A stretch of DNA of 54,391 bases from Thermoplasmatota archaeon (GTDB taxonomy: Archaea > Thermoplasmatota > Penumbrarchaeia > Penumbrarchaeales > Penumbrarchaeaceae), in assembly GCA_016928095.1 (NCBI GenBank), contig JAFGLL010000104.1, positions 1-54,391 on the forward strand, read 5' to 3'. A program made the translations under genes and the position numbers. The notes below the pieces were generated by a model. The model was not told the DNA's origin. It saw only the letters and a program-made list of their open reading frames with translations, and searched no databases. Position 1 is the first letter of the stretch, and each line of letters starts with the position of its first letter. Of this stretch, positions 12,841 through 41,300 are shown piece after piece.

Positions 12841-12871
12841 TCATGGTCCCTATCTATCAGGGGGGTTGAGC

Positions 12872-13546
12872 ATGCAGGCAGCCTTAGAGGATAAGACGGA
12901 TATACCACCCGAGGCGGGAGAGGTTGAGGAGAGGGCCATCCAGATGCTGTGCATGGAGGGGGACATTGATCATATCATCAACAGGGTCATGTCCGGTCAG
13001 GTGAGCAAGAAGAGGGTTCTTCGACGGACACTTGACATATTGATCGGTCTGTCGTTGAAAGGATATGAAGGTAAACCGGTCGGCGCGATCTTCCTGATCG
13101 GTGATATCGAAGGTATAAGAAGGCATACTAGCCAGATGATCATTAATCCCTTCAAGGGATGGAGGGACATAAACATCCTGGATGAGAAGCAGATGCCCAC
13201 CTTCGAAGCCTTCTGTCAGCTTGATGGCGCATTCGTTCTGGACCATCGGGGTTTTGCACACTATGCCGGGAGAATGATCCAGGTCAGGGGAGAAACGGAC
13301 TGCGGTAAAGAAGACCCGGGGAAACACCCCATCGACCGGAACGGTACAGGTACCAGGTCCAGGGCTTCGAGGTACATCACTGAAAGGACCAAGACCATCG
13401 CCGTATCCCTTTCCCACAGTGGTGAGATAACCCTTTTCGAGAGAGGGAAGGAGATCGGTCGGATCACAAGAAAGGTCGTTCATGTCGATCCGAAGATGCT
13501 GAAGAACCTCGTTCTAGCCGGTCCGAAGATCGATAATAAGGGTTAG
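12872..13546 (+). CDS. dacZ: Diadenylate cyclase (DisA_N/DacZ type)
   Basis: A 224-residue protein with a DAC domain that condenses two ATP to cyclic di-AMP, a second messenger that controls osmolytes and potassium uptake in several archaea and bacteria. The catalytic LDGAFVLD (DGA at 118-120) is present, followed by the glycine-rich GTGTRSRASRYITERT. The second motif normally reads RHR; here it is RSR (162-164), a change at a nucleotide-binding position. The N-terminal 45 residues are helical. The ATG at 12872 follows GGGGGGTTGA; a TTG two codons earlier is the alternative. The gap after the gene contains competing inverted repeats. Confidence 0.87.
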   Translation: MQAALEDKTDIPPEAGEVEERAIQMLCMEGDIDHIINRVMSGQVSKKRVLRRTLDILIGLSLKGYEGKPVGAIFLIGDIEGIRRHTSQMIINPFKGWRDINILDEKQMPTFEAFCQLDGAFVLDHRGFAHYAGRMIQVRGETDCGKEDPGKHPIDRNGTGTRSRASRYITERTKTIAVSLSHSGEITLFERGKEIGRITRKVVHVDPKMLKNLVLAGPKIDNKG

Positions 13547-21734: not shown

Positions 21735-21860
21735 TACCGGAGATGTATCCATGATGAGCATACAGATTTTTCACGGTTCAATGAAAAAGCTTAAAATGTC
21801 CATTCCAGTATATTCAATTGGGGACCTATTCGTGAGCTGACGGTCTCCCGAGGACAATTG

Positions 21861-23867
21861 ATGGCAATGGGCGAGCATCGATCGGGGAAGAATCGTATCA
21901 TCAGCATCTTTGACCCCCTGAAGGACAGGGTCGTTATTTCACTGATAGCGGTGGGTGTGATGGTGATACTCCTCCTGACATCCATCGGGATCTTCTTCAT
22001 CGACAGCCCCGCAGGCGTGGACCACGGGGGCGGTGGGAGTGACAATGAAAAGATGGGGCTCGAGATCACATATCTACCTGCTGAACTGAGGTCGGGGATG
22101 CAGCAGGAGATCAGAGGCATGATCACGGATGACAAAGGCATCCCTGTCCCCGATGCACTGGTGACCATCAACTTCACCAACGACCCAGATGATATATACA
22201 GGACCACGAGCGGTCCCGACGGTCAGTTCACTCTCCCATTCTGGTCACCGGAGACCGAATCGGACTCCACATACGATTTCGACATAACGGGTTCGAAAAA
22301 TGGTTACGACACTAAAAGCATCCCTCTCGAACTGGAGATCGTCACCCCGGACGACTGGACCTTTATGATCTACATGAGCGACTGCGACCTGGAGGAGTTC
22401 GCCCTGAATGACATCAACGAGATGGAAAGCATTCCCCATGGCGATCATCTGAACATCATAGCCCAACTTGACCGATGGGAGAGCTTATCCCCCAAGGACG
22501 ACAGGTCCGACGGGAACTGGACCAGTGCAAGAAGATACCTCATAGAACCGGATAGCGACACGAGATCGATCGGGTCAAGGCTTCTCGAGGAGCTCGGGGA
22601 GATCAACACGGCAGATCCCATGGAACTGGTGGATTTCGCAACGTGGGCGATGGAGGGATATCCGGCGGACAGGTATGCCCTGGTCCTCTGGAACCACGGT
22701 TCAGGTATAGACGGTATATGCTGGGAGCAGTCCATGGAGGAGGACGATGTGATAACCATCAAGGAGCTCGGGGAGGCCCTTGACAGTATCACAGGGAATA
22801 TCGGGAGGCCCCTGGACATCATTGGGTTCGATGCATGCCTCATGTCCACCATTGAAGTCGCCTACGAGATAGCCCCTTATTCCAGATACATGTTGGGCTC
22901 CGAGATCACCGAACCGACGTTCGGATGGGACTACGGTGTCCTTGACGAGCTGATCAAGGACCCTTTCCTGACGGAGATGGAACTGGCTGAGGAGATAATA
23001 GGGGGATATATCTCCCAGACGGACCTCACACAATCCAAACGGTCCCTTTCCATGGGAGTTCTGGACCTCATCATGGCCGATGGGACGGTATCCCGTCTCG
23101 ACAACCTCTCCAATGCCATCAACAGTGCGGGCTCGGCCGAGATATACAATATGAGGATCGCAAGGAAATATTCCCAACCCATCAGCAACGGCTACAGTTC
23201 GGACGCCGTCGATCTCAAGGACTACGTCGAGAAAATAATGGACCTGTCAGCAAGCCAGCAGGTCAAGGAGAGCGCGCAGCTGCTGCTGGATTCCTTGACC
23301 GGTATGATCGCCGGGTTCGACAGGGTCCAGGGTATCAGCGACATCGATACGAACGGGCTCAACGGCATATCCATCTATTCCCCTGACTTCAAGGATGTCA
23401 TGGACCAAAATGAGGATTACGACGATCTCAAGTTCGTGGAGGACACCAGCTGGAAGCAGACACTGCTCTCATATTACGAGAACATGGGTACGTATATGGA
23501 GGAGCGGGTCGTCTCCTTCCAGGACGATCTTCTTTCCTGCAAGGTCAAGGACGAGGACGGGGACCTCCTTCCCGACACCATGGTCTACCAGTTCAGGGTG
23601 GTCTCCGAGATCGATGAAGTCGATGTCTTTCTTGGTATCAACGTTTACGACCTGAGGGGGGACTACATAAATTCGACATGGTTGGAACTTAACCTGAGCT
23701 CCAGCGAGGACATGGACCTCATGGTCAAATTCCAGCCGAGAGGAGAGGACCGGGAGCCCGGGATGTACCGGATAGTCGCCTATCTGTGCCTCGGACCAGA
23801 ATTCGACCCATTATCGCTCCAGGACTACACCAGAAGCGGTTACCGTTGGCTCGAGATATACGGGTAA
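21861..23867 (+). CDS. Anchored clostripain-family (C11) cysteine peptidase
   Basis: A 668-residue extracellular peptidase. A single membrane helix near 24-45 (VVISLIAVGVMVILLLTSIG) acts as signal anchor. Residues about 65-155 form an Ig-like or carboxypeptidase-regulatory-like beta domain (VPDALVTINFTNDPDD, DGQFTLPFWSP). The C11 catalytic domain begins at DWTFMIYMSDCDLEEFALNDINEM; the catalytic dyad is His279 in NHGSG and Cys326 in GFDACLMS. A beta-rich C-terminal domain follows from about 530. Clostripains cleave after Arg, and proteins of this kind have been reported in Marine Benthic Group D archaea as tools for degrading detrital protein. Adjacent ATGs at 21861 and 21867 are both possible starts. 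Confidence 0.92.
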   Translation: MAMGEHRSGKNRIISIFDPLKDRVVISLIAVGVMVILLLTSIGIFFIDSPAGVDHGGGGSDNEKMGLEITYLPAELRSGMQQEIRGMITDDKGIPVPDALVTINFTNDPDDIYRTTSGPDGQFTLPFWSPETESDSTYDFDITGSKNGYDTKSIPLELEIVTPDDWTFMIYMSDCDLEEFALNDINEMESIPHGDHLNIIAQLDRWESLSPKDDRSDGNWTSARRYLIEPDSDTRSIGSRLLEELGEINTADPMELVDFATWAMEGYPADRYALVLWNHGSGIDGICWEQSMEEDDVITIKELGEALDSITGNIGRPLDIIGFDACLMSTIEVAYEIAPYSRYMLGSEITEPTFGWDYGVLDELIKDPFLTEMELAEEIIGGYISQTDLTQSKRSLSMGVLDLIMADGTVSRLDNLSNAINSAGSAEIYNMRIARKYSQPISNGYSSDAVDLKDYVEKIMDLSASQQVKESAQLLLDSLTGMIAGFDRVQGISDIDTNGLNGISIYSPDFKDVMDQNEDYDDLKFVEDTSWKQTLLSYYENMGTYMEERVVSFQDDLLSCKVKDEDGDLLPDTMVYQFRVVSEIDEVDVFLGINVYDLRGDYINSTWLELNLSSSEDMDLMVKFQPRGEDREPGMYRIVAYLCLGPEFDPLSLQDYTRSGYRWLEIYG

Positions 23868-24642: not shown

Positions 24643-25758
24643 TCAATCCACATTGAGCCCGAAGGTCTCCCGGATCAGGGGATGGTATTCGAACCTCTTG
24701 ATCCATATGGTCTCGGGAAGAGAGTGCATCCTCAATATGGGCAGACCTCTCTGGAGATCGTTCATCTTCAGATACTGGTTGAACTCGCTGCGACCCCTGT
24801 TGTACTGGACATAATCCTTGTATGCACCCAGCATGATCAGCTCCCTGGGCCTCGATACCATAAAGATCGAGTCATCCGAAAGAAGGTGACGGTCCCTTGC
24901 CATCTCCAGGTCCAGGGGGTTCCCGGGTTCAATATTGACATTGAACAGGGCTAGTATGGTATAATCCAGTTTCGAGAGGTCCGGGATACGGAGCGAGCAC
25001 AGGTAGCCGTTCTCTATCAGGTTCTCCTTTACCCTGGAAATGGTATGTCTGGAATAGGGGACCCTCGAGGAAAGCTTCGATGATGAGAGGTGGGGATACT
25101 TCACGATATAGTACATTATCTCCAGTTGCTTTTCGGATATCTCCACATCCCTGAGGCTCTTGACCAGGTCCCTGGGTTCGACCAGGAATATACCGTCCTT
25201 ACGGTAGAGGTCCTCCTCCCTGAGGCCTGAATTCTCCATCAACCCGGGATCATCGCTCGAGAAGTCGCGATAGAGCAGGGGTGCCATATTGAAGTACCTC
25301 AATACCCAGGATATCTCGAACGGGAACAGGACCTCCTTGGGCAGCTCTATCTCAAGCAGGTTTAGCTTTGCCAGAAGGCCCAACCTCTCGTGGGATATCC
25401 TCATGATCCGGGTCACGTTCCTTGCGATCGAGATAGAGAAACCTCTGTGGGATTCACCTAGGGACATCAGTATCTCCGGATAGACCTCAACTGACCTCCT
25501 GGAATGCTCCACCCTCTCCTCCACCCTGATGGAGGGATTGAAATCGCTGTAAACCGTTGCCAGGAGCTCCATCCCCAGTTTCGGAAAGACCGGTACGAAG
25601 GTCTCCTGAATGAACCCGGATCCGGTAAGCCTTGCCTTGGCGGATGCGAAGGTCGAATTGGGGATCGACAATCTTTCGGCGATGTCACGGTCCTTGTCAT
25701 CGGAATAGGCGACAAGCCCGATGAACGCCAGTTTCTCTGTCCTTGATAGACCCTTCAT
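24643..25758 (-). CDS. Two-HTH transcriptional regulator beside the citrate operon
   Basis: A 371-residue protein. N-terminal HTH: KLAFIGLVAYSDDKDRDIAE followed by RLSIPNSTFASAKARLTGSG (about 7-50). A central alpha/beta region of about 160 residues shows no catalytic motif and may sense a ligand. A second winged HTH lies near 212-260 (SEKQLEIMYYIVKYPHLSSS, then RHTISRVKENLIENGYL), and a C-terminal alpha/beta domain follows. I do not recognise the family. It is transcribed divergently from the aconitase-CitDEF-IDH operon, and a perfect 13-bp palindrome sits between the two promoters, so control of that operon is a reasonable inference. ATG 25758 is chosen: a TATA-like box lies about 35 nt upstream, within the longer ORF extension. 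Confidence 0.8.
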   Translation of the reverse strand: MKGLSRTEKLAFIGLVAYSDDKDRDIAERLSIPNSTFASAKARLTGSGFIQETFVPVFPKLGMELLATVYSDFNPSIRVEERVEHSRRSVEVYPEILMSLGESHRGFSISIARNVTRIMRISHERLGLLAKLNLLEIELPKEVLFPFEISWVLRYFNMAPLLYRDFSSDDPGLMENSGLREEDLYRKDGIFLVEPRDLVKSLRDVEISEKQLEIMYYIVKYPHLSSSKLSSRVPYSRHTISRVKENLIENGYLCSLRIPDLSKLDYTILALFNVNIEPGNPLDLEMARDRHLLSDDSIFMVSRPRELIMLGAYKDYVQYNRGRSEFNQYLKMNDLQRGLPILRMHSLPETIWIKRFEYHPLIRETFGLNVD

Positions 25759-25791
25759 ACGTTTGACCTGAGACCCATATCCATCATCAAC

Positions 25792-25804
25792 TATTTTATA
25801 ATTA
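25792..25804 (-). promoter_or_regulatory. TATA-like box of the two-HTH regulator
   Basis: Minus-strand ATAATTATAAAAT lies about 35-45 nt before the ATG at 25758, with its upstream side toward the palindrome at 25828-25840. Confidence 0.4.
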
Positions 25805-25827
25805 TGAAAAATAGAGCATAATAATTG

Positions 25828-25840
25828 TGGACATTGTCCA
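25828..25840. promoter_or_regulatory. Candidate operator palindrome TGGACA-T-TGTCCA
   Basis: A perfect 13-bp inverted repeat lies between the regulator TATA box (25792-25804) and the aconitase TATA box (25881-25892). It is GC-containing in an otherwise A/T-rich 188-nt gap, which makes it stand out. The divergently encoded two-HTH regulator is the likely binder. Confidence 0.45.
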
Positions 25841-25880
25841 TTATTCCTGTAAATTAAAGGAATATTCAAAATTTAGTAAT

Positions 25881-25946: not shown

Positions 25947-27866
25947 ATGGGACTGACCCTGGCTCAGAGGATCTTGAAGGAGCATCTTGTCGAAGGAACG
26001 GAAAAGATAGGAGACTCCATCGCCATAAGGATGGACCATACATTGACCCAGGATGCCACCGGAACGATGGCATACCTGCAGTTCGAGGCTATGGGCCTCG
26101 ACAGGGTCCAGACCGATCTGTCGGTCTCCTTCATAGACCACAACATGCTCCAGACGGATTTCATGAATGCTGACGATCATCTCTATCTGCAGTCCATTGC
26201 ACAAAGATACGGTATAACGCTTTCCAAGGCCGGGAACGGGATCTGCCACCAGGTCTTCTTCGAGAGGTTCGCCAGACCGGGAAAGACACTCATTGGTTCC
26301 GATTCCCATACGCCGACGGCCGGAGGAATGGGGCAGCTGGCCATCGGGGCCGGCGGACTTGATGTCGCCGTCGCCATGGCGGGCGGACCCTTCGAGCTCA
26401 AGTACCCGAAGATCATGGGGATCAAGGTAACAGGAAAGCTGACCCCCGGAGTGAGCGGCAAGGATGTCATCCTGGAGGTCCTGAGACGGCTTGACGTCAA
26501 GGGAGGACGCGGCTATATCCTTGAATATTTCGGTCCCGGTGTCAGTAACCTGTCGGTTCCTGACAGAGCCACCATTACCAACATGGGGACAGAGACCGGA
26601 GCTACCACCTCCATCTTCCCCTCGGATGAGGCCACAAAGGCTTACATGGAAGCCATGGGACGGGGCGATCAGTGGATCGAAATGAAAGCGGACAGTGACG
26701 CCGTTTACGACGAGGTCCTGGACCTCGACCTCTCGAAAATAGAGCCCCTCGTCGCCAGACCGCACTCCCCCGGAAACGTCTCCCCTGTCAGAGAACTCCT
26801 CGGGACCAGAGTGAACCAGGTCTGCGTGGGATCATGCACCAATTCGTCCTACCGGGACCTCATGACCGTCGCCAACATGGTGAAGGGGAAGAAGGTCCAC
26901 CAGGACGTTTCCGCCACGATCTCCCCCGGCTCCAGGACCATAATCAAGGAGATGATCAGGACCGGTGCCTATTCGGACCTTGTGGAGGCGGGTTTCAGGA
27001 TACTGGAATCCGGATGCGGCCCGTGCATCGGCATGGGGCTTGCCCCGTCCTCGGGTGCGGTTTCCGTGAGGACGTTCAACCGGAATTTCGAGGGAAGGAG
27101 CGGGACCAAGGACGCCCAGGTCTATCTGGTATCCCCCGAAGTGGCCGCTGCAACCGCCTTGAAGGGTGAGATGGCAGATCCGAGGGAGTTCAAGGGCATC
27201 GAACCCGTAAGGGAGCCCTCAAGATATTCTACTGACGACAATCTCTTCGTCGCCCCCCTCCCGCCAGAGGAGGCAGGGGGGGTGGTGATCGTACGCGGCC
27301 CGAACATCAAACCGCTTCCGGCCTTCCATCCCCTACCGGAGAAGGAGGAGGGAGAGGTCCTGATAAAGGTGGGTGACAACATCACCACCGATCATATCAT
27401 GCCTGCCGGGGCGAAGATACTACCCCTCAGGTCCAATATCCCCAAGATATCGGAGTTCGTCTTCAACTCCGTCGACCCGGGCTTCCCCAAGAGGGCGATC
27501 GAAAAGGGTGGCGGGTTCATCATAGGCGGGGAAAATTATGGACAGGGGTCCTCAAGGGAGCATGCTGCGCTCGCCCCGAAATATCTCGGGGTGAAGGCCG
27601 TGATCGTCAGGTCCTTCGCAAGGATACACCGGGCCAATCTGGTCAACTTCGGTATCCTCCCTCTCACATTCAAGGATCCCGCCGATCTCGATCTTATAGA
27701 GATGGGCGACAGACTGAAGCTGGTCATCGGGGACCTCAGCGACCTTGTTCTGGAGGTCGAGAACAAGGGTTTGAAGATACCTCTCCTTCACGATCTTTCC
27801 GAGAGGGAGATCGAGGTCATGAAGCAGGGGGGAACGCTGAACTATACCCGGTCCCAGCTATCCTGA
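25947..27866 (+). CDS. Aconitate hydratase (monomeric, about 640-residue type)
   Basis: A 639-residue [4Fe-4S] enzyme that interconverts citrate and isocitrate. DHTLTQDATG and GSDSHTPTAGGMG are active-site segments; the cluster Cys ligands are in GSCTNSS (about 293-299) and SGCGPCIG (about 354-361). The C-terminal swivel domain starts near 470 (DNITTDHIMPAG) and contains the catalytic Ser in GQGSSREHAA. Length and the DHTLTQD start resemble the short bacterial aconitases close to the isopropylmalate isomerase line rather than the 890-residue AcnA. GGAGG precedes the ATG. It is first in a tight operon with citD, citE, citF and isocitrate dehydrogenase, supporting a role in citrate metabolism rather than leucine or lysine synthesis. 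Confidence 0.95.
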   Translation: MGLTLAQRILKEHLVEGTEKIGDSIAIRMDHTLTQDATGTMAYLQFEAMGLDRVQTDLSVSFIDHNMLQTDFMNADDHLYLQSIAQRYGITLSKAGNGICHQVFFERFARPGKTLIGSDSHTPTAGGMGQLAIGAGGLDVAVAMAGGPFELKYPKIMGIKVTGKLTPGVSGKDVILEVLRRLDVKGGRGYILEYFGPGVSNLSVPDRATITNMGTETGATTSIFPSDEATKAYMEAMGRGDQWIEMKADSDAVYDEVLDLDLSKIEPLVARPHSPGNVSPVRELLGTRVNQVCVGSCTNSSYRDLMTVANMVKGKKVHQDVSATISPGSRTIIKEMIRTGAYSDLVEAGFRILESGCGPCIGMGLAPSSGAVSVRTFNRNFEGRSGTKDAQVYLVSPEVAAATALKGEMADPREFKGIEPVREPSRYSTDDNLFVAPLPPEEAGGVVIVRGPNIKPLPAFHPLPEKEEGEVLIKVGDNITTDHIMPAGAKILPLRSNIPKISEFVFNSVDPGFPKRAIEKGGGFIIGGENYGQGSSREHAALAPKYLGVKAVIVRSFARIHRANLVNFGILPLTFKDPADLDLIEMGDRLKLVIGDLSDLVLEVENKGLKIPLLHDLSEREIEVMKQGGTLNYTRSQLS

Positions 27867-27882
27867 TAGGGAAGGTATCATC

Positions 27883-28170
27883 ATGGTGGAGATCGTCAGA
27901 TTGAGAAGGGAGGGTTCGGCCGGTACCGAAGAGAGGGAGGACTGTATGGTCAGGCTCTCCCCCGCGGAGCCGGGGTCCGGGATAAGGATAGAGATCGAGG
28001 GGAAATCCCGGGATTTCTTCAGGGATGAGGTCTTCAAGGTCTTCGAAACCACCCTTAAAGGTATGGGAATTGTCGATGCGAACGTTTGGAGCAAGGGTCA
28101 GAGCCCCTTGAACTTCACAATAATAGCCAGGACAAAAGCGGCAGCCATCAAGGCGGGTGCGTTCGAATGA
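27883..28170 (+). CDS. citD: Citrate lyase acyl carrier protein (gamma subunit)
   Basis: A 95-residue acyl carrier subunit. GSAGTEERED at the N terminus contains Ser12, equivalent to the Ser of CitD that carries the 2'-(5''-triphosphoribosyl)-3'-dephospho-CoA-derived arm; the rest matches the CitD fold (IEIEGKSRDFF, VFETTLKGMGI, LNFTIIARTKAA). During catalysis the acetyl group on this arm is exchanged for citrate by CitF, and the resulting citryl group is cleaved by CitE. The gene lies 16 nt after aconitase and its stop overlaps the citE start. The enzymes that build, attach and acetylate the prosthetic group (CitG, CitX, CitC) are not in this window. Confidence 0.9.
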   Translation: MVEIVRLRREGSAGTEEREDCMVRLSPAEPGSGIRIEIEGKSRDFFRDEVFKVFETTLKGMGIVDANVWSKGQSPLNFTIIARTKAAAIKAGAFE

Positions 28171-29117
28171 AGCTGAGAAGATCGAGGCTTTACGTCCCTG
28201 GCAACACTCCAAAGATGATCCCTCCGGCCGGCCTCTACGGTGCAGATGTCATCTCATTGGACCTGGAGGATGCCGTTGGGCCCGATTTCAAGGTGGATGC
28301 CAGGATGCTGGTCTCTGAAGCTCTCAAGATCGTTGATTTCGGCCCGGGAGTCGAGGTGACGGTTCGTATCAACCCGCTTTCCACCGAATGGGGTAGATGG
28401 GACATCAGGCAGATCGTCTGCAACAAGCTGGACGGGATATACATACCCAAGGTGGAATCCCCCGAGGACGTTATCCTTGTTGACGAGCTTGTTACCGACC
28501 TCGAGGAGAAGAAAGGACTACCCATCGGCAGGATCAAACTGTTCGCCACCATGGAGACGGCAAAGGGGATCCTCAACTCGTACGAGATAGCCCGATGCTC
28601 CAAGAGGCTCGAGGGGATCACCATCGGAGGCGAGGACCTTACAGCCGATCTCGGTGGAGAGAGAAGCTCCGATGGAATTGCCATACACACTGCCAGACAG
28701 TTGATAGTACTCGCTGCCAGAGCCGCGGGCATACAGGCCATTGACACGGTCTACGCCGATTTCAGGGATATGGAAGGGTTGAGGAAGGAGACCGAACTGG
28801 TAAGGAAGATGGGATACGATGGCAAAGCATGTATCCATCCCAACCAGATCGAGGTCATCCACGAGGTGTTCAATCCCACACCGGATGAGATCGTGCACGC
28901 GGTCAAGGTGACCAATGCCATCGAGGAAGCCAGGAAAAGGGGCTCCGGCGTCATTGCCCTTGGCAAGAAGATGGTGGACCGACCGATAGCTCTCAGGGCG
29001 GAGAAGGTGCTTGCGAGAGCCCATGCCGCGGAGCTTCCGATACCCACTATCGAGGAGATCAAGGCCATTGAAGAAACGACCAGCTCCGGGACCGGTAAAG
29101 GCGGAGGTGATGACTGA
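28167..29117 (+). CDS. citE: Citrate lyase beta subunit (citryl-ACP lyase)
   Basis: A 316-residue TIM-barrel lyase that splits citryl-ACP into oxaloacetate and acetyl-ACP. The start RRSRLYVPGNTPKM, then DVISLDLEDAV, VRINPLSTEWG, TMETAKGILNS and IGGEDLTADLG, are CitE hallmarks; Glu of METAKG and Asp of GGEDLTADLG bind Mg. CACIHPNQ-like KACIHPNQIEVIHEVFNPT near 245 closes the active site. Stand-alone CitE-like proteins have other substrates (malyl- or citramalyl-CoA), but location between citD and citF argues for true citrate lyase. ATG 28167 overlaps the citD stop (ATGA); the longer frame upstream is rejected. Confidence 0.93.
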   Translation: MKLRRSRLYVPGNTPKMIPPAGLYGADVISLDLEDAVGPDFKVDARMLVSEALKIVDFGPGVEVTVRINPLSTEWGRWDIRQIVCNKLDGIYIPKVESPEDVILVDELVTDLEEKKGLPIGRIKLFATMETAKGILNSYEIARCSKRLEGITIGGEDLTADLGGERSSDGIAIHTARQLIVLAARAAGIQAIDTVYADFRDMEGLRKETELVRKMGYDGKACIHPNQIEVIHEVFNPTPDEIVHAVKVTNAIEEARKRGSGVIALGKKMVDRPIALRAEKVLARAHAAELPIPTIEEIKAIEETTSSGTGKGGGDD

Positions 29118-30769
29118 TGGTGAACATCGATGAGCTGGAATGGGTCGAGAACGCCATAGGTCGAAAGGTCCCCAAAAGTTTACATGGTCAGGAACTTCAT
29201 CCCTATATCGGACCCTTCAAACACAGACCCACAAAGGACCACAAATACGGTCCGAAGCTCGGATATGTGGCTGACCAGACGAGCGAACTGGTCTCGTCCC
29301 TTTCGATGGCCATCGACAAGGTGGGGTTGAAGGACAATATGACCATTTCCTTCCACCACCACTTCAGGAACGGCGACCATGTCATGAACATGGTCCTGGA
29401 GGAGATAGAGAAGAAAGGGATCAAAAACCTCATTCTTGCCCCCAGCTCCACGTTCCCCTGCCAGGAGGAGACAATAATCAGATGCGTCAAGAACGGCACC
29501 ATCGCAAGTATAGAGGGAGGGTCCGCCCGGGGTGAGATCGGAAGGATGGTCTCCTCCGGAAATTATCTTGAGCATCCCATGAAGATCAGGTCCCACGGAG
29601 GAAGGGTCAGGGCGATCGAGGCGGGAGATATCAAGATAGATGTGGCATTCATAGGAGCCCCCTCCGCCGATGAGCTGGGGAACCTGAACGGAGTTATCGG
29701 TCCGTCAGCATGCGGGACCATAAATTTCTCATTCGTGGACGCCCGTTTCGCGGACAATGTGATCGCCATAACGGACCACCTTGTAGAGTATCCGAATTTC
29801 CCCATGTCCATTAGCCAGGAGCTTGTTGATTACATAGTGGTCGTGGACAAGATCGGGGACCCGAACAGGATCGCATCCGGTGAGCTCAAGATCACCAGCT
29901 CTCCGACCAGATTGAAGATCGCCAAGGATGCTGTGAGGATTGCGGACCTCCTAGGTTACGTTAAGGACGGGATGAGCTTCCAGGCAGGAGCGGGCGGTAT
30001 ATCCCTTGCCTTCACCGACTTCCTTCACGATCTCATGAAGGAGAAGAAGGTCGTTGCGAAATGGGCACAGGGTGGTACGACCAAATTCCTTGTGGACATG
30101 CTCAAGGACGGGACCGTCAGGAAGCTCATCACCGGGCAGGCCTTTGATATCGCTGCGATCGAGAGCATGAGGGATGACCCCAAGGACCATGTAGACCTAC
30201 CCATAGGGGCCTATGCCAATATACACGGAAAAGGATGCACGGTCAACAAATTGGACATAGTTGTGCTCGGAGCGTCCGAGGTGGATACCAGCTTCAATGT
30301 GAACACGGCAACACTCTCCAGCGGGTTGATAGCAGAGCCTGTCGGAGGACACTCTGATACTGCGGCGGGAGCGTCGCTCTGCATAATAACCGTGCCGCTG
30401 TTCAGAGGCAGGTATCCTGTGATAGTGGAGGACTGCACCACGGTGGTCACACCGGGCGAGACCGTCGATGTCATTGTGACGGAAAGAGGGATCGCCATCA
30501 ATCCTATGAGAAAGGACCTTCTGGAAAAGCTCGAGAAGGTCAAGGTCCCGCGAGACCTCCGTATCTGCACCATCAAGGAGCTCCAGGAGATGGCCTACAA
30601 TATCACCGGAGGGAAGGTCGAACCGAACTGGGGAGACAAGATAGTTGCGCTGATAGAGTACAGGGACGGGACCATCATTGATACGGTGAGGAACGTCCTG
30701 CCGAAGTACTATGATGACGCGATCTTCGTTGACAAGGAGGATTTGGATGTCGAACGCAGAGAAAATTAA
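29117..30769 (+). CDS. citF: Citrate lyase alpha subunit (citrate:acetyl-ACP transferase)
   Basis: A 550-residue CoA-transferase-fold protein that swaps acetate for citrate on the CitD arm. Motifs: [13 protein letters not shown] (near 75-87), SGGR-like [66 protein letters not shown] and [23 protein letters not shown], as in CitF. It is somewhat longer than the usual 505-520 residues. The ATG at 29117 overlaps the citE TGA and follows GGAGGTGA, so the citrate lyase subunits are likely made in balanced amounts. Its last 23 nt overlap the isocitrate dehydrogenase gene. Confidence 0.94.
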
Positions 30770-31970
30770 GGTTAGGACGCCGATAGTTGAGATAGACGGG
30801 GACGAGATGACCCGCGTGCTATGGAAGATGATCAAGGATAAGCTGATCCTGCCCTATCTGGACGTGGAGCTTATCTATTTTGACCTTCACCTCAAGAAGC
30901 GTGATGAGACCGATGACAGAATAACGCTGGAGGCAGCCGAGGCCATCAAGAATTACGGTGTGGGCGTGAAATGCGCCACCATCACCCCTAACGGCGCCAG
31001 GGTGAAGGAGTACGGGCTCAAGCAGGAGTGGAAGTCCCCCAACGGAACCATCAGGGCAGCCCTTGACGGAACGGTCTTCCGCAAACCGATAATGGTGAAG
31101 AACGTGAAACCGTCGGTGACGTTGTGGAAGAAACCCATCATCATAGGCAGGCATGCCTACGGGGACGTTTACAAGAACCAGGAGATACTCGTTCCCGGAC
31201 CCGGTAAGGGGGAGATCGTCTTCACGGATGCACAGGGTAACGAGACAAGGAAGTTGATCCAGGAGTTCAAAGGACCCGGTGTCCTTCAGGGGGTACACAA
31301 CACCGACAGGTCCATCAGATCTTTCGCGAAGGCCTGCATGGAATATGCCCTTGATCAGAAGGTCGACCTCTGGTTCGGAGCCAAGGATACCATATCCAAG
31401 ATCTACGATGCAAGGTTCAAGACCGTCTTCGAAGAAGTGTTCGAAAAGGATTACAGAAAAAGGTTCGAGGAGGCGGGGATCACCTTCTTCTACACGTTGA
31501 TCGACGATGCCGTTGCCAGGATCATGAGGTCCGAGGGCGGCGTACTCTGGGCATGCAAGAACTACGACGGCGATGTCATGTCCGATATGCTTGCATCCGC
31601 CTTCGGAAGTCTGGCAATGATGACATCCGTCCTGGTCTCACCGGAGGGGCTCTTCGAGTACGAGGCCGCCCACGGTACTGTCCAGAAGCACTACTACAAG
31701 CACCTCAGGGGAGAGTCGACCTCCACAAACTCGGTCGCCTCGATATTCGCATGGACGGGTGCGATCAGAAAGAGAGGTGAGCTCGACGGGACACCGGAGG
31801 TCTGCGAGTTCGCGGACCGTCTGGAGAAAGTGATCCTGGAAACCATAGAATCCGGCATCATGACCGGGGACCTCGCAAGGCTGTCGGAACCCAAACCCGA
31901 AAAGGTCTACCTTTCGGAAGAATGGATCGACGCGGTCAGGTCGCGGTTGGACCAAGAGATCAGAGGATGA
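30747..31970 (+). CDS. icd: Isocitrate dehydrogenase, NADP type (eukaryote-like subfamily)
   Basis: A 407-residue enzyme that interconverts isocitrate and 2-oxoglutarate plus CO2. [16 protein letters not shown] at the N terminus, [33 protein letters not shown], the catalytic Tyr/Lys regions, IDDAVARIM (Mg-binding Asp) and [12 protein letters not shown] are those of the homodimeric NADP enzymes found in eukaryotes and many bacteria, rather than the NAD/NADP type common in archaea. The start codon follows GGAGG inside the end of citF, so it is part of the same operon. The reaction can run as reductive carboxylation, which would feed citrate to the two cleavage systems. Confidence 0.95.
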
Positions 31971-31987
31971 ACATACGAATATATACC

Positions 31988-32028
31988 GGGTGCACCCGGA
32001 AGACCGGGGCACCCTTAACTTTTTTTTT
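31988..32028 (+). terminator. Terminator of the aconitase-CitDEF-IDH operon
   Basis: GGGTGC (31988-31993) pairs with GCACCC (32009-32014), and the inner CCGG copies (31996-31999, 32004-32007) pair around an AAGA loop; nine T residues follow (32020-32028). It lies 18 nt after the isocitrate dehydrogenase stop, between convergent operons, and looks like a bacterial-style intrinsic terminator. Confidence 0.65.
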
Positions 32029-32114
32029 CCCGGACCTGTCCGAACCTTTCAAGAAGAGCATCCTCGCTGCTTTATGGAATTGGACCGAGGACCCGGTCGT
32101 CGATCCGTTATATA

Positions 32115-33956
32115 TCATTCCTTTCTCTCTACCATGTAGAGGATGTCCTCCCACGGATGCCGATACAATCTCTCACCCATCCTTTTCTGGTCCAGTGCAT
32201 GTCCAATCAGTCCGATGGACCTTCCAAGGACGAAGAAACCGTTCAAGTATCCCAGGTTCACGATGTTCCTGACCTCTTCGTCATTGTAATGGCCCACCCC
32301 CCGCAGCATGTCCACCATGAGAACACCGATGGTCCCGTCCACGTTCAGTATGAGATTGGACTTCTTCTGGGTCGTAACCGTCTGTACACCGAGCGCGAAA
32401 TCCAGAAGATCGGTCCTGGGGAAGTTCTTCCTTGCATACTCTATTAGCAGGGTGACCCTGCCGTCCGGGTTCTCCAGCGATTTCACCCTGTGGCCGATAC
32501 CCGGGATCTTGACGTTCTTATCCTTCATCTCCTTGACGAAATCCCTGGGTACGATCCCGCGCCTGAACGCATCGCTCATGTACTTCGCACAATCGTCGAT
32601 GGCACCTCCGAACCTGGGTCCGATCGTAAGAAGACCCGAACAGAGGCATGAGATCAGGTCCTTTCCGGCCCTGGATGCGATTATGGCATTGTGAGCTCCC
32701 GATACGGCGGGGCCGTGGTCAGCAACTATCATCAAGGCCATCTCCATGAAATCGGTGGCCCATTTGGGGAACCTCCTACCGAACCATAGCAAGGATATCA
32801 CATCACCTATCTTTCCCCCGGAGTGGACTATCTCCGAGATCGGATATCCTCCGTAGTTGACCTCCTCCCCGCGGTCATCCGCGACAGTGCTGATGAATGA
32901 TGTGGGTTTGCGTATGATCCCGCGTTTTAATGCGTCCGCATAGTCCATCGGTATGTTGGGTACGTTCCTGGGCTCCTCTATCGGGGTGATCTTTCCCTCG
33001 TCCTTGAGCTTGATGAAGGTCCTTGCTATCTCCTCGCCCAGAGTATCGAATGAGTGCGGGACTATAACTCCGGCCTTCTTGAGTGTCTTGTTCTTGGCAT
33101 CGGCGGTCTCCGCTTCGGCCCCTGCCTTGGCCCCGGCATGACCGAACTGAACGCCCGCCGGGAACATCTTCGAGCAGGTACCCATCACCCAGAAAACAAT
33201 GGGTTTTGTAAGGAGCCCCTTATTTACAGCTTCAACGACCTTGTACTCCTCGTCCCCTCCGAGCTCTCCCAGGGCCACCATAATCTTGATCTTGGGATTG
33301 GCCTCGTACCTCAGCAGGTGGTCTATCAGGCTCGATCCCGGGTACTTGTCACCTCCTATTGCGACCCCCTCGAATATACCGTCAGTATTGTGAGATACTA
33401 TGTTGAACATCTCGTTGAGTAGACCCCCGGACTTCGTTACCAAACCCACGGAGCCTCTCCTGTAGAGCTTCTGCTCCCTTATGTTCTCTATCGTACCTCC
33501 GGTGTTGCCCACTTTGAAAGCCCCCGCCCCGATGGCCCCCACGGTTGCGGGTCCTATGATGATCTTCTTGAGCTTTTTGGACAGGTGGGCAAGTTCCCTG
33601 GCCTTCCTCTCGGGAACACCCTCCGCGATGACCGCGACAACCCTTATCTGTTTGTTCAGCAGGGCTTCCTTTGTGGTGGCGTAAGCAGATCTGAAGGAGG
33701 CGAAATTCACCATGACGTCAATATCGCCGTTGGCATCCGTAGCCGTTTGTATGGTGGGATATATGGGTATCAGGACCTCGCCTTTCCCCCAGTGTGCCTT
33801 GTGCGTTCCTGAATTACCCGGGTTCACTATGGCGGCCACGGAAGGCTTCTCCCTTCCGGAGAGATAATCGAAGTCCAGCATTCTCTGGACGGCCTTTGTC
33901 TGCATGTTGTACACTATCGATCTGGTATCTCTGGAGAAAAGCAGGTATGGTTCCAT
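32115..33956 (-). CDS. aclA: ATP-citrate lyase, large subunit (SCS-alpha plus citrate synthase-like)
   Basis: A 613-residue subunit closely similar to the C-terminal part of human ACLY. Residues 30-330 are the succinyl-CoA synthetase alpha-like CoA-ligase part (KPSVAAIVNPG, NFASFRSAY, IGPATVGAI, FKVGNTGG) with the phospho-accepting His273 in QFGHAGA. Residues about 345-613 are the citrate synthase-like cleavage module (ADHGPAVSGAHN, GIGHRVKSLENPDGR, NLILNVDGTIGV, LGRSIGLIGHALDQKR, YRHPWEDI). With the small subunit it converts citrate, ATP and CoA to acetyl-CoA and oxaloacetate, the key step of the reductive TCA cycle in bacteria such as Chlorobium. ATG 33956 overlaps the stop of the small-subunit gene. 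Confidence 0.97.
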   Translation of the reverse strand: MEPYLLFSRDTRSIVYNMQTKAVQRMLDFDYLSGREKPSVAAIVNPGNSGTHKAHWGKGEVLIPIYPTIQTATDANGDIDVMVNFASFRSAYATTKEALLNKQIRVVAVIAEGVPERKARELAHLSKKLKKIIIGPATVGAIGAGAFKVGNTGGTIENIREQKLYRRGSVGLVTKSGGLLNEMFNIVSHNTDGIFEGVAIGGDKYPGSSLIDHLLRYEANPKIKIMVALGELGGDEEYKVVEAVNKGLLTKPIVFWVMGTCSKMFPAGVQFGHAGAKAGAEAETADAKNKTLKKAGVIVPHSFDTLGEEIARTFIKLKDEGKITPIEEPRNVPNIPMDYADALKRGIIRKPTSFISTVADDRGEEVNYGGYPISEIVHSGGKIGDVISLLWFGRRFPKWATDFMEMALMIVADHGPAVSGAHNAIIASRAGKDLISCLCSGLLTIGPRFGGAIDDCAKYMSDAFRRGIVPRDFVKEMKDKNVKIPGIGHRVKSLENPDGRVTLLIEYARKNFPRTDLLDFALGVQTVTTQKKSNLILNVDGTIGVLMVDMLRGVGHYNDEEVRNIVNLGYLNGFFVLGRSIGLIGHALDQKRMGERLYRHPWEDILYMVERKE

Positions 33957-35239
33957 CAATTCACCCCCTTTCCTTCATCTCTGAGCGCCATCGGAATGAT
34001 CGAGGTCATGTGAAGCTCCGGACCATAGACCTTTATGGGGATGCCGATCTCGGAACCGACCTCCTTCATCTTCTCAAGGCCGGCCTTGAAGTTCGGACCG
34101 CCTCTCCTGACGTATATCCTGACCCCGACCTCCTTCATCTGGTCCGAATATTCCTTCATGGCCTGGATGATCCCCGTGAAGGTATTGGCGACATCCGTGA
34201 AGTTTGCGATGCCGCCCCCTATGATGAGGACCTTCTCCTTGCCGGACCTGTGTTTTGACCTCGTCATCATCGAGAGTATCGTCTTGGCATAGAGGTAGGT
34301 AAGTTCCGTTGATGGGTCCCCCGAATACTCGCCGTAGTTCGAGAGCTCCTTTCCGAAACCCATGTCGACAATGGTGTCCGCGTACACAACGGAAGCTCCT
34401 CCGCCCGCCACCATGGTCCATATCCTGCCCTCAGGGTTCAGGATGGTGAGCTTGAGGGATGCTCCGGTCTTCTCGTCCAGGGACTTGATGTAGGCCTCTT
34501 CCGGTGTCGGGTCCTTTCCGAAGGGTTCGGGGAACTCCCCGAAGTCCCAGACCCCCACGTTCTGGTATGCCGCCGTGTCATCGACCTTTGCCACCATGTC
34601 CAGTACCTTGATCTTCCTGTCCACGATGGTGAAGGGATTTATCTCGAAATAGACAAAATCGTGATTGAGGAAGAACTGGTATGTTCCCTTGAGGAAAGGT
34701 GCCAGAAGCTTCTTCTCTTCAGCGCTCAGTCCCTCAAGGAGCGGTTCGGAGTCGAACTCCTGATCTTCCAGCGGTGATACGCTGACCTCCTTGACGGTCT
34801 CCCAGACCGATTCGATATCCACACCGCCCTGGGTCGAGAAATAGATATGGTCTGCATCGGCCTCCATCTTTATCGCTACATAGTACTCACTGTCATGAGG
34901 AATGAACGGTTCGACAAGGAAATGTGTCAATTTTCCCTTGACCTGTCCTATCTTTGCGCTCTTTCCCATCTTCTGCCTGATGAAGTTGGCAGCCTCCTCG
35001 AAGGAGGCATCCAGCAGGACCAATCCCGATTTGCCCCTCTTTCCAAAGAGCTGGTCCGGTTTGACCACAAGCCTCATGTTATGGAGCCATGGGTTCTCTT
35101 CCGGTAGCTTCTCGATTTCGGTCCCTGGATCGACAAGGATCGGCATTATATCGAACTTGATCTTCTCCCCTGTATACTGGGGCATCATCCGGTAGAATAT
35201 CCTTTTTGCATCGTACTCACGAATTCCCCTTCGGGCCAT
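33956..35239 (-). CDS. aclB: ATP-citrate lyase, small subunit (ATP-grasp, citrate-binding)
   Basis: A 427-residue subunit matching the N-terminal part of human ACLY. Residues up to about 240 are the ATP-grasp fold (NMRLVVKPDQLFGKRGKSGL, LVEPFIPH, FEINPFTIVDRKIKVLDMVAKVDD); the rest is the citrate-binding region (PFGKDPTPEEAYI, GASLKLTILNPEGRIW, MVAGGGASVVYADTI, NYGEYSGDPS, GGGIANFTDVA, VRRGGPNFKAGLE). The split into two genes is the bacterial arrangement, here with the small-subunit gene first. The ATG at 35239 after GTGGTGGTC is chosen over upstream starts because homology begins at RRGIREYDAKRIF. A TATA-like box (minus strand GTTTATATC) lies about 35 nt upstream. Confidence 0.97.
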   Translation of the reverse strand: MARRGIREYDAKRIFYRMMPQYTGEKIKFDIMPILVDPGTEIEKLPEENPWLHNMRLVVKPDQLFGKRGKSGLVLLDASFEEAANFIRQKMGKSAKIGQVKGKLTHFLVEPFIPHDSEYYVAIKMEADADHIYFSTQGGVDIESVWETVKEVSVSPLEDQEFDSEPLLEGLSAEEKKLLAPFLKGTYQFFLNHDFVYFEINPFTIVDRKIKVLDMVAKVDDTAAYQNVGVWDFGEFPEPFGKDPTPEEAYIKSLDEKTGASLKLTILNPEGRIWTMVAGGGASVVYADTIVDMGFGKELSNYGEYSGDPSTELTYLYAKTILSMMTRSKHRSGKEKVLIIGGGIANFTDVANTFTGIIQAMKEYSDQMKEVGVRIYVRRGGPNFKAGLEKMKEVGSEIGIPIKVYGPELHMTSIIPMALRDEGKGVN

Positions 35240-35481: not shown

Positions 35482-36636
35482 TCAGGGTGATGTTCCCTCT
35501 TCCACCTTCTTCATGAACCCCCATCTGCCGCAGAACCAGTGGTGGGTCAGGGGGATTATGGAAACCGTGAAATTGAAGTACAGGTCAAGCTGGTGATACC
35601 AACCTCCCTCCTGATGGAATATTCCCATTCCCTCATCCAGAAGGCCAGGGGATATCCAGTTGGGCAGGAGCTCCGGCTGGGCTATCACCAGATGGAAGAA
35701 GAAGTAGGAGAGTATTATTGCAGGTACCAGCACGAGCAGCCTCTTGACGACCCTCCAGCCGGCGGAGTTCGTGGACGAGAAATTGCTGGAATACAATCCG
35801 AGCAGGACGGCAGGCGTCAGAGGATAGGTCCCCATGTAAAGCACCCTGTGCCATCTCTCTCCTGTGGTGAGTGGCTCTTCCCAGGGTGCTATATGGGGGA
35901 GGACAGCATAGCACAGGTATGCAATTGCCGCTCCGATCACTATCGCGGCTGCGAAGAGGAACGCTCCGTACAGATAGTCGTTGCCCATCCTGAGCTTCTT
36001 CTGGAGAACGGGGAGCCAATCTTTGAACACCAGGGCATAGAGCAGGGACATGATTATCACCCACTGGCTTATGGCAAGGAGTTGGTCCATATCGCCTCCT
36101 TGGAACTTTTCGGCGGAATACCCATTCCCCACATATCCATAGAAAAGGAATGCCCAGAGGACCCATATGATGACATACCAGAAGAACGCCTTGGCCACAT
36201 CGTTCTTCATCCAGCCAACAAGTTTGCCCTTGAACATGAAATCGTCGAAACCGTATATGAAGAACCCGAAGACTATGAAGCTGAAATGCCCGGTCATTAT
36301 GATGCCGCCGTGATCAAGGACGGGATGTGCTATCTCTGGCACCCCGAATACGTTGATCATGATGGCCTGATTGACGAAGAAAATCACAACCGCGCCGAAT
36401 ATGGACACGAACTGTCTGAACAGACCCCCCATGTCCGGGATCGGCTGCCTCTTGAAATAATGGCTCTGGCAGATGGACAGGAGCACGTAATATCCCAGCA
36501 TTGGAGAATAGTAGTTGAGGAATGCGCCTTCTCCAAGCATCCGCCAGAATATCAGGAGCACTGCCATCCCGATACCCAGACCCAACAATGCACCCTTTAT
36601 CCAGGTCCCGTTTCCCCATTTTAACACGTAAGACAT
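35482..36636 (-). CDS. Polytopic membrane protein of unknown family
   Basis: A 384-residue protein with about nine to ten membrane helices. It is rich in Trp, Tyr, Phe and His at helix ends, for example CQSHYFKR, ITHHW-like PLTHHWFCGRWGF near the C terminus, HPVLDHGGIIMTGHFSF and TGERWHRVLYMGTYPLTP. Polar and charged residues (Asp, His, Glu) inside predicted helices suggest a transporter or a redox/ligand-binding membrane subunit, but no family signature is recognised. It lies upstream of the ATP-citrate lyase genes on the same strand, separated by a 242-nt gap with its own promoter. Involvement in citrate or organic-acid transport is a guess from location only. The opposite strand has a long shadow frame. 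Confidence 0.8.
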   Translation of the reverse strand: MSYVLKWGNGTWIKGALLGLGIGMAVLLIFWRMLGEGAFLNYYSPMLGYYVLLSICQSHYFKRQPIPDMGGLFRQFVSIFGAVVIFFVNQAIMINVFGVPEIAHPVLDHGGIIMTGHFSFIVFGFFIYGFDDFMFKGKLVGWMKNDVAKAFFWYVIIWVLWAFLFYGYVGNGYSAEKFQGGDMDQLLAISQWVIIMSLLYALVFKDWLPVLQKKLRMGNDYLYGAFLFAAAIVIGAAIAYLCYAVLPHIAPWEEPLTTGERWHRVLYMGTYPLTPAVLLGLYSSNFSSTNSAGWRVVKRLLVLVPAIILSYFFFHLVIAQPELLPNWISPGLLDEGMGIFHQEGGWYHQLDLYFNFTVSIIPLTHHWFCGRWGFMKKVEEGTSP

Positions 36637-38243: not shown

Positions 38244-38335
38244 TACCTGGGGCGTCGATATACCACTAATAATATCTACGGGAACATGACTGACTGGATG
38301 GTTCCTGCAGAGTGATCCGTCATGGAGGACTTTCG

Positions 38336-41300
38336 TTGAGATCCCGGATGGTCGTGCCTATACTCGTTCTGTTCATGCTGCTTCCCTCTTCCATCCTTGC
38401 GGCAGCTGCTCCCGGACAGGTCCCCGCAGGGACGATGGACCTCACCTCCTTTGTCCTTGAAGGATGCGTGGAATTCCAATTCGGGTTCGAACCATCGGGT
38501 GTGGAATTCTACGATGTCGATGGATCCGTGGTTGTCAGTAAGGAGGGGATGGGGTCGACCGCTGTAACGGGAGAACCGTTGGTGCCTGTATCCCTCCACT
38601 CGTTCGTAATTGATCCTTACGCCTCCGAGGTGGAGATCGAGATCGTATCCTCCACCTTCGATATCATCCCTGCCCCGGGACCGATCATGGGCGTTCCCCG
38701 GCAGGTCCCCATCGGCCTCCCGGAAGATATACCTCCCACAGAATACTCGGTTCCGCTCGATGGTCCGCTCAGGACCCTTGCTACCGGATACGTCCGCGGT
38801 CACTTCATCCAGGATATTGCTTTCCAACCCGTTCTCCCGCTCTCCGACGGCACCTTGATGATATACAGTAGCGTGGAAGGAAGGATACGGTTCTCTTTCC
38901 CCGTGAACGGTGAGAGGACTTCCACCACCAGCAGGTCGACCTCTGTCTTCAGGAGCTACCTGGAGGGAAAGCTCGAGAACCCGGAGGACCTGGACAGGTT
39001 CGGGGCAAGACCCATTATTTCACCTGCCTCCTCTCGACTGCAAGAGGAAGACGTCCAGTATGTATTGGTCACCAACAGTACCCTGGTCGGCGACCACCTG
39101 ACGAAGATAAGGGACTGGAAACAGCAGAAAGGAGTTCCCTCAAGGATAGTGGAGATGTCCTTCATCACCTCGAACTACAACGGGACGGACGCTCAGGAAA
39201 AGGTCAGGAACTTCATAAAGGACGCCGTTTACTCCTGGGAGACCGAATATATCCTCCTGGGAGGGGACATCTCCGTGATCCCCTACAGGTCCACATATGT
39301 CAAGTCCGGAAGTTATGTGGAAACGGATTGTGCCGCGGACCTCTATTACTCGGACCTTGATGGGTCCTTCAACGATGACAACGACAGCTTATGGGGTGAG
39401 GTGGAGGACAATGTGGACCTGAGACCCGATGTCATTGTTGGAAGGGCTCCGGCCCAGACCTCCGAAGAGATGGATACCTTTGTGAAAAAGACACTGAAGT
39501 ACGAGATCGACCCGATCTCCGGTTACCTTGACAACGTGACCCTTGCCGGGGAATATCTGGATGCCAACACCAACTCTTCCCTGGGATTGGACCTTATCAA
39601 GAACAACCTCCTTCCGCCCAACATCAACGCAACCTCTCTCTATGACAGCGCTCAGGGTGTTTTCGGGAACCTCGACAGGCCGAACTTCATGGCCCAGGTG
39701 GACAGGGGCCTGTCCTATGCCTTCCATTCGGGCCATTCGAACTACAACGTCATGAGCGTTGGGACCGCCGGCCAGAGCTCTCTTTACAGCACGGATGTCC
39801 CCAGTTATAGCGGCGGATACCGGATCGGTGTCATGAACTCCCTTGGATGCATCGCCAACCGCTTCAGCGTGAACGACTGTATCGGCGAGCTCCATGTGAT
39901 GGAGTCCGACGGCGGTTCCGTGGTGTTCATCGGGAACAGCAGGTACGGCTGGTATGCCCCTTACAACCCCGGAATGGGCACCTCTGATGTATACATGTAC
40001 AGGATGGCGATAGAGCTGTTCTCGAACGGGAATACGAACATGGGAGCGCACTTCGCCCTTGCCAAAGATGCATTTACAGGTTATTCAGGGTCCGACGGCT
40101 CCTACCGATGGCTCCAGATGGCCCTCAACATGATGGGCGAACCAGAGATGCACGTCCGGACGGCCGAGCCTGGTCTGTTCAATATAACGCTTCCGGATAA
40201 CATCGGCAGGTCGTATACGGGTTTCAACATCACCGTGAACAATGCGAGCGGGAGCCCTGTGAAGAACGCACTGGTATGTCTCCAGCAGTCAGGGTACTAC
40301 GCATACAACCTCACCGGAAGCGACGGAAAGGCCTTCTTCGATATCTCCACCCAGAACTTCGATATTGTGAACGTGACGGTCACGGGATACAATTTCCTCC
40401 CCTTCACTGCCAACATTTCCATCGATATAAGACCGCCAAGCTTGATCATCAACTCTTGCGGGAATGCCACCACCGGGGATGATTACGAGTTCAACTGCAC
40501 TGCCATCGACGAGGCCGGGATACTGTCCGTGCTTCTGGACCTCAGAATGGAAGGTCAGGACTCCAATGACACGGTTACCTATCAAATGGTTAATGATGGA
40601 AGTTACTGGACGGTTCCCGTCGGGATACCTCAAGATTCCACGAAAGACCTGCTCTGCCGCTACAGGGGGAGAGACAATTCCGGGAACTGGAACGAGACCC
40701 TGTGGACCACCGTGAACGTCATTGACAACGATATGCCATGGATCATCGACGACATGACCGACCCCGTCTCGACCACGGGAGAGGTGATAGACTTCAATAT
40801 CACGGCTGGAGACAATATAGACGTCTCCTCCATTCAACTGTCCATATCCTGGAACGGCTCGGAAGGGACAGAGCACATAGATATGGTCCATGCTCCCGAC
40901 AGATGGGTCCTAGCATGGGATGTTCCTTCGGACAGGATCGGCACGCTCGATTACATCGCCGCCGTTCATGACGGGGCAGGCAATATCAACGCTTCCCATA
41001 TCGGGAGCGTCCTGGTCCTTGATAATGATGCTCCGGTCATCCTGCAGGACCTCTCGGACACCGTCGGCTCGACCTCGGACGACGTCAGGTTCATAGTATC
41101 TGTGGAGGACAACATAGGTCTGGAGGGGGTCTTCGTCGAGTTCTGGAGACTCGGTTACCCCGAACATGAGACCATACCGATGGTATCTGACGAAGAGTTG
41201 TGGACCCTATTCATCGAACTGTCCCCATCCGACCTCGGGACCATTTACCATATCTTCCATGCCATGGACACCTCGGGCAACTGGGTTCATTCCCTGGAAG

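Follow-up and report, generated by a model that had tools for sequence, protein, structure and literature searches.

Why should an uncultured archaeon keep two different citrate-cleaving enzymes side by side, together with the enzymes that connect citrate to 2-oxoglutarate? The question is raised by a DNA stretch of 54,391 nt (hereafter the window; contig JAFGLL010000104.1 of the Thermoplasmatota assembly GCA_016928095.1), which is contig 29 of a metagenome-assembled genome (MAG; 2.8 Mb, 96% complete and 1.4% contaminated). Open reading frames and hidden Markov model (HMM) scans revealed that aconitase (Acn), citD, citE, citF and isocitrate dehydrogenase (IDH) form a single plus-strand operon, on which aclB and aclA, an intact operon for ATP-citrate lyase (ACL), converge from the minus strand (Table 1). 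This confirms the gene reading of the original prediction, which a model had made from the sequence alone. The block is interpreted here as the citrate half of the tricarboxylic acid (TCA) cycle, which would run reductively and serve fermentation in an organism devoid of citrate synthase (CS). A probability of roughly 0.57 is assigned to this interpretation.

The successive gaps in the operon are 16, -4, -1 and about -23 to -59 nt, and 144 nt separate the end of the IDH gene from that of aclA. Both iron-sulfur cysteine motifs (CVGSC and SGCGPC) were found in the aconitase. CitD exceeds the cut-off of PF06857 (44 bits, cut-off 25.1) and stays under that of TIGR01608 (52.6 bits, cut-off 63.5). 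CitE, with TIGR01588 as its best match (324.5 bits, under the cut-off of 443.4), has intact catalytic motifs (ETAKG and GGEDL) that align with those of CLYBL, and CitF has relatives in PDB entries 2hj0 and 1xr4. The domain set of ATP-citrate lyase is complete (PF24948, PF16114, PF00549 and PF00285), and AclA contains the motifs GHAGA, GIGHRVKS and LDQKR, which we take, from human ACLY, to provide the catalytic histidines and aspartate.

A misassembly of two genomes at the joint between the two operons had been named as a possible source of error. However, the joint recurs in an independent MAG of the same genus (G072, contig C127, locus L110), where PaaK, the membrane-like ORF401, AclB-AclA and the end of IDH follow each other in the same convergent layout. 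The DNA of this MAG aligns across the junction at 83% nucleotide identity, and its CitF and AclA are 93% identical to those of the window. Because an independent MAG carries it, the junction is real and misassembly is ruled out.

Table 1. Features of the window at and around the citrate-cleaving block.
Feature	Position	Strand	Evidence
Aconitase, one-chain, 639 aa	25947-27866	+	NF005558, 951 bits
citD, citrate lyase gamma (carrier) subunit without cofactor serine	27883-28170	+	PF06857, 44 bits, 2.7e-11
Arg18 codon, site of the cofactor-bearing serine	27934-27936	+	Alignment with 7 bacterial CitDs, all Ser
citE, citryl-thioester lyase (beta) subunit	28167-29117	+	PF03328, 203 bits, 5.3e-60
citF, CoA-transferase (alpha) subunit	29117-30769	+	TIGR01584, 590 bits (cut-off 501 passed)
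NADP isocitrate dehydrogenase, eukaryote-type	30747-31970 (open frame from 30711)	+	NF006156, 653 bits; TIGR00127, 539.5 bits
AclA, ATP-citrate lyase subunit with citryl-CoA lyase domain	32115-33959	-	Ligase_CoA and Citrate_synt domains
AclB, ATP-grasp/citrate-binding subunit	33956-35239 (likely start; open frame to 35314)	-	ATP-grasp and Citrate_bind domains, 286 bits; PF16114, 1.2e-85; PF24948, 2.9e-70
TrmB-like helix-turn-helix regulator, divergent from the operon	24643-25869	-	PF01978, 1.9e-7
Hydrophobic membrane-like protein, directly upstream of aclB	35482-36636	-	No match in Pfam or NCBIfam

The block across the Thermoplasmatota and the absence of citrate synthase

A sample of 293 Thermoplasmatota genomes was searched with CitF and AclA, and the neighbourhoods of the matches were compared. 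Across the phylum the block follows the formula Acn + (CitDEF or ACL or both) + IDH. It is found as Acn-CitD-CitE-CitF-IDH preceded by a TrmB-like regulator (loci L033, L035 and L038; also L050, the sequence of which starts at Acn), as Acn-AclB-AclA-IDH (L122, L123, L138 and L150-L153), as CitF-IDH-AclB-AclA (L154), and in the layout of the window with its convergent aclB-aclA. In L049 all elements are joined with oxaloacetate decarboxylase (Oad) genes in one run, Acn-CitD-CitE-CitF-AclB-AclA-IDH-OadA-OadB-BirA. OadA-OadB also lies a few genes past IDH in L152 (Acn-AclB-AclA-IDH-...-OadA-OadB), and an ADP-forming acetyl-CoA synthetase (ACD) follows AclA in L114. Acn comes first in every variant with enough flanking sequence, except in L121.

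The position after CitF or AclA is held by three unrelated types of IDH. The eukaryote-type NADP-IDH occupies it in the window, L060, L072, L079, L085 and L087, the monomeric NADP-IDH in L033-L038, L068 and others (TIGR00178, 1295 bits), and the archaeal-type IDH in L049, L050, L065 and others. At 24 of the 29 ACL loci other than that of the window, an IDH (9 archaeal, 10 monomeric and 5 eukaryote-type) adjoins the acl genes; of the other five loci, three are contig ends. The enzyme has been swapped while the slot was kept; selection therefore appears to hold IDH activity together with citrate cleavage. This is strong evidence that the two belong together, and the gene-order comparison proposed with the original prediction thus ties the steps from 2-oxoglutarate to citrate to citrate cleavage throughout the phylum. 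The claim that the arrangement was especially unusual in an archaeon was overstated, as ACL was present in 62/293 genomes and had been reported earlier in Thermoplasmatota together with a possible reductive TCA cycle (PMC9802188).

In a genome-wide profile search, AclA was the sole match to PF00285, the profile of Si-citrate synthase, in the window's genome, so that the absence of CS first noted at the locus holds for the whole MAG. When a true CS was defined as a full-length match with E < 1e-70, none occurred in the 62 ACL genomes, and CitF genomes had one in 3 of 74 cases vs 161 of 219 for genomes lacking CitF. The table of "ACL or CitF" against CS (3/91/161/38) gave a Fisher value of 1.5e-40, uncorrected for shared ancestry and with noise added by incomplete MAGs. 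This suggests that CS was lost in the window's organism. A single-contig genome of 1,486,778 bp (G034, L028) combines CitDEF, including a serine-less CitD, with a true CS. Two proteins of the HMGL family, to which Re-citrate synthase belongs, are encoded on contig C112 next to LeuC/LeuD and lysine genes and match LeuA-like and homocitrate/isopropylmalate synthase models.

Three further observations concern relatives of these proteins. A 417-aa frame on the same contig (G000:C112; L115, 2119-3372) apparently fuses a LeuD-like domain to a threonylcarbamoyl-adenylate-synthase-like domain. In other Thermoplasmatota families (L013-L023, L058, L144 and L145) a CitF homologue is the immediate neighbour of a LeuC-like dehydratase that shares about 37% identity with the LeuC of the window's genome; the pair possibly serves another hydroxy acid such as citramalate. 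A second CitF paralogue (G000:C41:13214-14788; L039, 9218-10822) is 45% identical, and lone copies also occur in members of the family (L040-L044). As no CitD or CitE is encoded beside it, this paralogue was dropped as a candidate citrate lyase.

A citrate lyase without the carrier serine

In bacteria the gamma subunit of citrate lyase bears phosphoribosyl-dephospho-CoA, a cofactor that CitG and CitX produce and CitC acetylates (PMC10798043). Alignment placed Arg18 of the window's CitD opposite Ser14 of the E. coli protein. The cofactor serine is missing from 18/18 Thermoplasmatota CitDs that cover the region, most of which have Arg or Lys at this position, whereas it is kept in 7/7 bacterial CitDs (E. 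coli, Klebsiella, Enterococcus, Melissococcus, Gluconobacter, Azospirillum and Lelliottia). No serine or cysteine is conserved across the archaeal CitDs. The cysteine of the window's family is Leu, Val or Ala elsewhere, and a thiol carrier on this residue is unlikely because it is not conserved beyond some families. Besides, CitG (PF01874) had no match in the window's genome or in the family genomes, and CitC (PF08218) had none in 27/27 genomes of relatives searched. The citrate lyase genes are thus present as predicted, but the canonical lyase that they had been taken to encode is not, since the missing cofactor serine, CitG and CitC had been overlooked.

The loss of the serine together with the missing CitG and CitC suggests that free CoA thioesters are probably what this lyase works on. 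In the simplest reading of the sequences CitF and CitE would use free acetyl-CoA and citryl-CoA, and CitD would be structural. The isolated alpha and beta subunits of bacterial citrate lyase can act on CoA thioesters, as is known from older biochemistry. CitD and CitE are fused in a single open frame in four genomes (L027, L139, L026 and L012). The AlphaFold model of the window's CitD is a compact alpha/beta domain of fair confidence (pLDDT 85, pTM 0.78), for which a Foldseek search of the PDB returned generic ribosomal-S5/EF-G-like matches only and no solved CitD. Alternatively, the loss of the serine might be compensated by a cofactor attached elsewhere or bound non-covalently, the enzyme still being a classical carrier-dependent citrate lyase. 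The retention of CitD, CitE and CitF together is consistent with this, and the Arg or Lys so often present at the lost position could hold the CoA phosphate. However, such an enzyme would have to do without CitG and CitC and without any serine or cysteine common to the archaeal CitDs, and is considered unlikely.

The proposed citrate route and its alternatives

For the remaining steps of a glutamate fermentation, the window's genome encodes two proteins of the glutamate dehydrogenase (GDH) family (contigs C73 and C71), OadA-OadG-OadB in a row on contig C105 (OadA, TIGR01108, 719 bits, just under the cut-off of 756; OadG, TIGR01195, 39, cut-off 36; OadB, TIGR01109, 428, cut-off 191), a one-chain pyruvate:ferredoxin oxidoreductase (PFOR), a partial PorA with a PorB, three indolepyruvate:ferredoxin oxidoreductases (IORs), and two acyl-CoA synthetases of ACD size. 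Genes for a C11 clostripain-type (21858-23867) and a C25 gingipain-type (38312-42364) peptidase are present in the window itself. This inventory fits the redox sink in a glutamate fermenter that the original prediction had offered as one of two options. The other, a reductive TCA cycle, lacks three of its enzymes in this genome. KorA was not found there, the best TIGR03710 score being 47 bits vs a cut-off of 483 and the POR_N matches being PFOR, PorA and three IOR alpha subunits. The search for an SdhA/FrdA-type flavoprotein, as in fumarate reductase, gave only FAD-motif fragments of up to 32.5 bits, and no succinyl-CoA synthetase subunit of SucD size was found, since the PF13607 matches are two ACD-length proteins and AclA. 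Therefore, no oxidative outlet for 2-oxoglutarate is apparent, and a reductive TCA cycle cannot be completed. Although ACL is encoded, and two other Thermoplasmatota MAGs have been suggested to possess such a cycle (PMC9802188), CO2 fixation by this route is rejected as extremely improbable for the present organism, barring the presence of all three enzymes in the missing 4% of its genome. A study of MBG-D/Thermoprofundales MAGs reported no aclAB or frdAB (PMC6461988).

From this gene content we infer the following route. Glutamate would be converted to 2-oxoglutarate by GDH with NAD(P)+ or by transamination, and 2-oxoglutarate, CO2 and NADPH would yield isocitrate through NADP-IDH and then citrate through aconitase. 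Citrate could be split in two ways. In the ATP-free split by CitDEF, with the net conversion of citrate into acetate and oxaloacetate, CitF would transfer the CoA of acetyl-CoA onto citrate and CitE would cleave citryl-CoA into acetyl-CoA and oxaloacetate, with CitD as structural subunit. ACL, at the expense of ATP and with CoA, would keep the two-carbon unit as acetyl-CoA, next to oxaloacetate. The choice between them may, as originally supposed, depend on the energy state. Oxaloacetate would then be decarboxylated to pyruvate and CO2 by OadAGB with export of Na+, pyruvate would be oxidized to acetyl-CoA, CO2 and reduced ferredoxin by PFOR, and ACD would form acetate and ATP. The lyase branch would convert glutamate into 2 acetate, CO2, NH4+ and reduced ferredoxin. 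Provided that the coenzymes match, IDH would consume the NAD(P)H made by GDH and so close the redox balance, and Oad would release the CO2 that IDH had fixed. The complete scheme, an undescribed redox-closed "citrate route" of glutamate fermentation in Thermoplasmatota that comprises GDH, reductive IDH, aconitase, a cofactor-less free-CoA citrate lyase backed by ACL, Oad, PFOR and ACD, with CS lost, is put forward more tentatively, at somewhat short of even odds.

The main rival to this fermentative route has the opposite, biosynthetic direction: CitDEF and/or ACL would operate in reverse and form citrate out of oxaloacetate plus acetate or acetyl-CoA, from which Acn-IDH would lead on to 2-oxoglutarate for glutamate and lysine. 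A replacement of CS predicts the near mutual exclusion of ACL/CitF and CS, a lysine cluster requiring 2-oxoglutarate is present on C112 (LysX/LysJ/LysK-like, by inspection), and Oad can run backwards in vitro. However, the equilibrium of citrate lyase allows very little citrate at realistic oxaloacetate levels, ACL normally serves cleavage, the co-operonic OadA-OadB is a catabolic consumer of oxaloacetate, and an ATP-free lyase beside a citrate-making enzyme would be a leak. As CS exclusion fits both directions, cleavage is favoured over synthesis because of the Oad linkage and the lyase equilibrium, and the biosynthetic alternative is considered rather unlikely. Fermentation of external citrate as in Klebsiella, to acetate and oxaloacetate and on to pyruvate with Acn-IDH supplying NADPH and 2-oxoglutarate, would employ CitDEF and Oad, the known citrate-fermenting set, and in L057 about 1.6 kb separate CitDEF from OadB/PycB homologues. 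Acn and IDH would then be unneeded, yet they are the most constant part of the block, including its Acn-AclBA-IDH form. No recognised citrate carrier gene adjoins any examined locus (no genome search for carriers was made), and CitD is without its cofactor serine, all of which makes this explanation improbable. Two citrate-splitting enzymes of opposite energy cost side by side would also be accounted for by an acetate/acetyl-CoA shuttle, in which backward ACL (acetyl-CoA + oxaloacetate + ADP -> citrate + ATP) and CitDEF would conserve ATP in place of ACD. This is weakened by the two ACDs of the genome; in many relatives the block contains ACL but not CitDEF, and IDH would be left without a role, so that such a shuttle is very improbable.

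Several points weigh against the fermentative citrate route itself. OadAGB, ACL and citrate lyase are all reversible in principle, and a loss of CS would be equally expected if CitDEF or ACL had replaced it in citrate synthesis. The statistics on CS and CitF/ACL ignore shared ancestry. In a MAG that is 96% complete any one absence may be a gap, although that of CS recurs in relatives; the absence of KorA is not fully repeated, as G020, of the same family, has a KorA at 477 bits. The Oad genes of the window's genome are on another contig, and the cofactor of CitD might in principle be attached at a different residue or held non-covalently. If the fermentative route is nevertheless correct, glutamate would be fermented using only TCA-type enzymes in reverse. 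It would also explain the many Thermoplasmatota that have ACL and no reductive TCA cycle, and ACL alone would be a poor marker of autotrophy in archaea. Besides, there would be a natural three-subunit citrate lyase without the covalent cofactor that has long been held as its defining feature.

Neighbouring genes and known systems

The TrmB-like gene keeps its position and orientation in L033-L038 (47-71% identity), and in L122, too, Acn-AclBA-IDH is preceded by a TrmB-like gene. The membrane-like gene beside aclB is kept in L110 (84%) and L112 (56%); it is a possible member of the acl operon, and its product possibly a carrier. Elsewhere in the window, a 425-aa protein (4060-5337, minus strand) contains a bacterial DnaA ATPase domain (PF00308, 1.4e-59; TIGR00362, 308 bits, cut-off 344). 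The DnaA C-terminal DNA-binding domain had no Pfam match in this protein, the gene of which adjoins those for an archaeal isopentenyl phosphate kinase and a type-2 IPP isomerase. A full serpin (18134-19456, plus strand; PF00079, 5.7e-108) is encoded in this archaeon in the same window as the C11 and C25 peptidases. A DisA/DacZ-like diadenylate cyclase domain (12866-13546, plus strand; PF02457; NF041371, 53 bits) suggests c-di-AMP signalling.

In the open-access literature, with most subscription papers outside its scope, no description was found of the Acn-CitDEF-ACL-IDH-Oad block, the serine-less CitD or the glutamate route. The enzymes as such are known already; new are their combination and the loss of the carrier. 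With bacterial CitDEF (EC 4.1.3.6; E. coli and Klebsiella) the archaeal set shares its three subunits, the D-E-F order, a CitF above the cut-off and the CitE motifs. It differs in having no carrier serine, CitC or CitG, in CitD and CitE scoring under the equivalog cut-offs, and in being joined by aconitase and IDH. Like the Chlorobium-type AclBA, the ACL is encoded at full length by two genes and has every domain and catalytic motif. Unlike in the latter system, the archaeal acl genes are linked to Acn, IDH and citrate lyase, in a genome without a reductive TCA cycle. Citrate lyase and a Na+-pumping oxaloacetate decarboxylase also act together in the citrate fermentation of Klebsiella (CitDEF and OadGAB), but in the archaeon citrate would arise inside the cell from 2-oxoglutarate instead of being taken from outside.

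Two further systems resemble the route as a whole. Reductive glutamine carboxylation in hypoxic animal cells (IDH1/aconitase/ACLY) has the same order of reactions, from 2-oxoglutarate through isocitrate and citrate to oxaloacetate and acetyl-CoA, and the window likewise has a eukaryote-type NADP-IDH. In the archaeon, in contrast, the genes lie in one operon, the organism would be an anaerobe, and a second, ATP-free split and a Na+-pumping decarboxylase would be added. The clostridial methylaspartate pathway is also a redox-closed conversion of glutamate, into acetate and pyruvate, by way of an enzyme of the citrate lyase family (citramalate lyase), and its net products are identical to those of the lyase branch. 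There, citramalate is obtained by means of a B12-dependent mutase, whereas here citrate would be obtained by reductive carboxylation.

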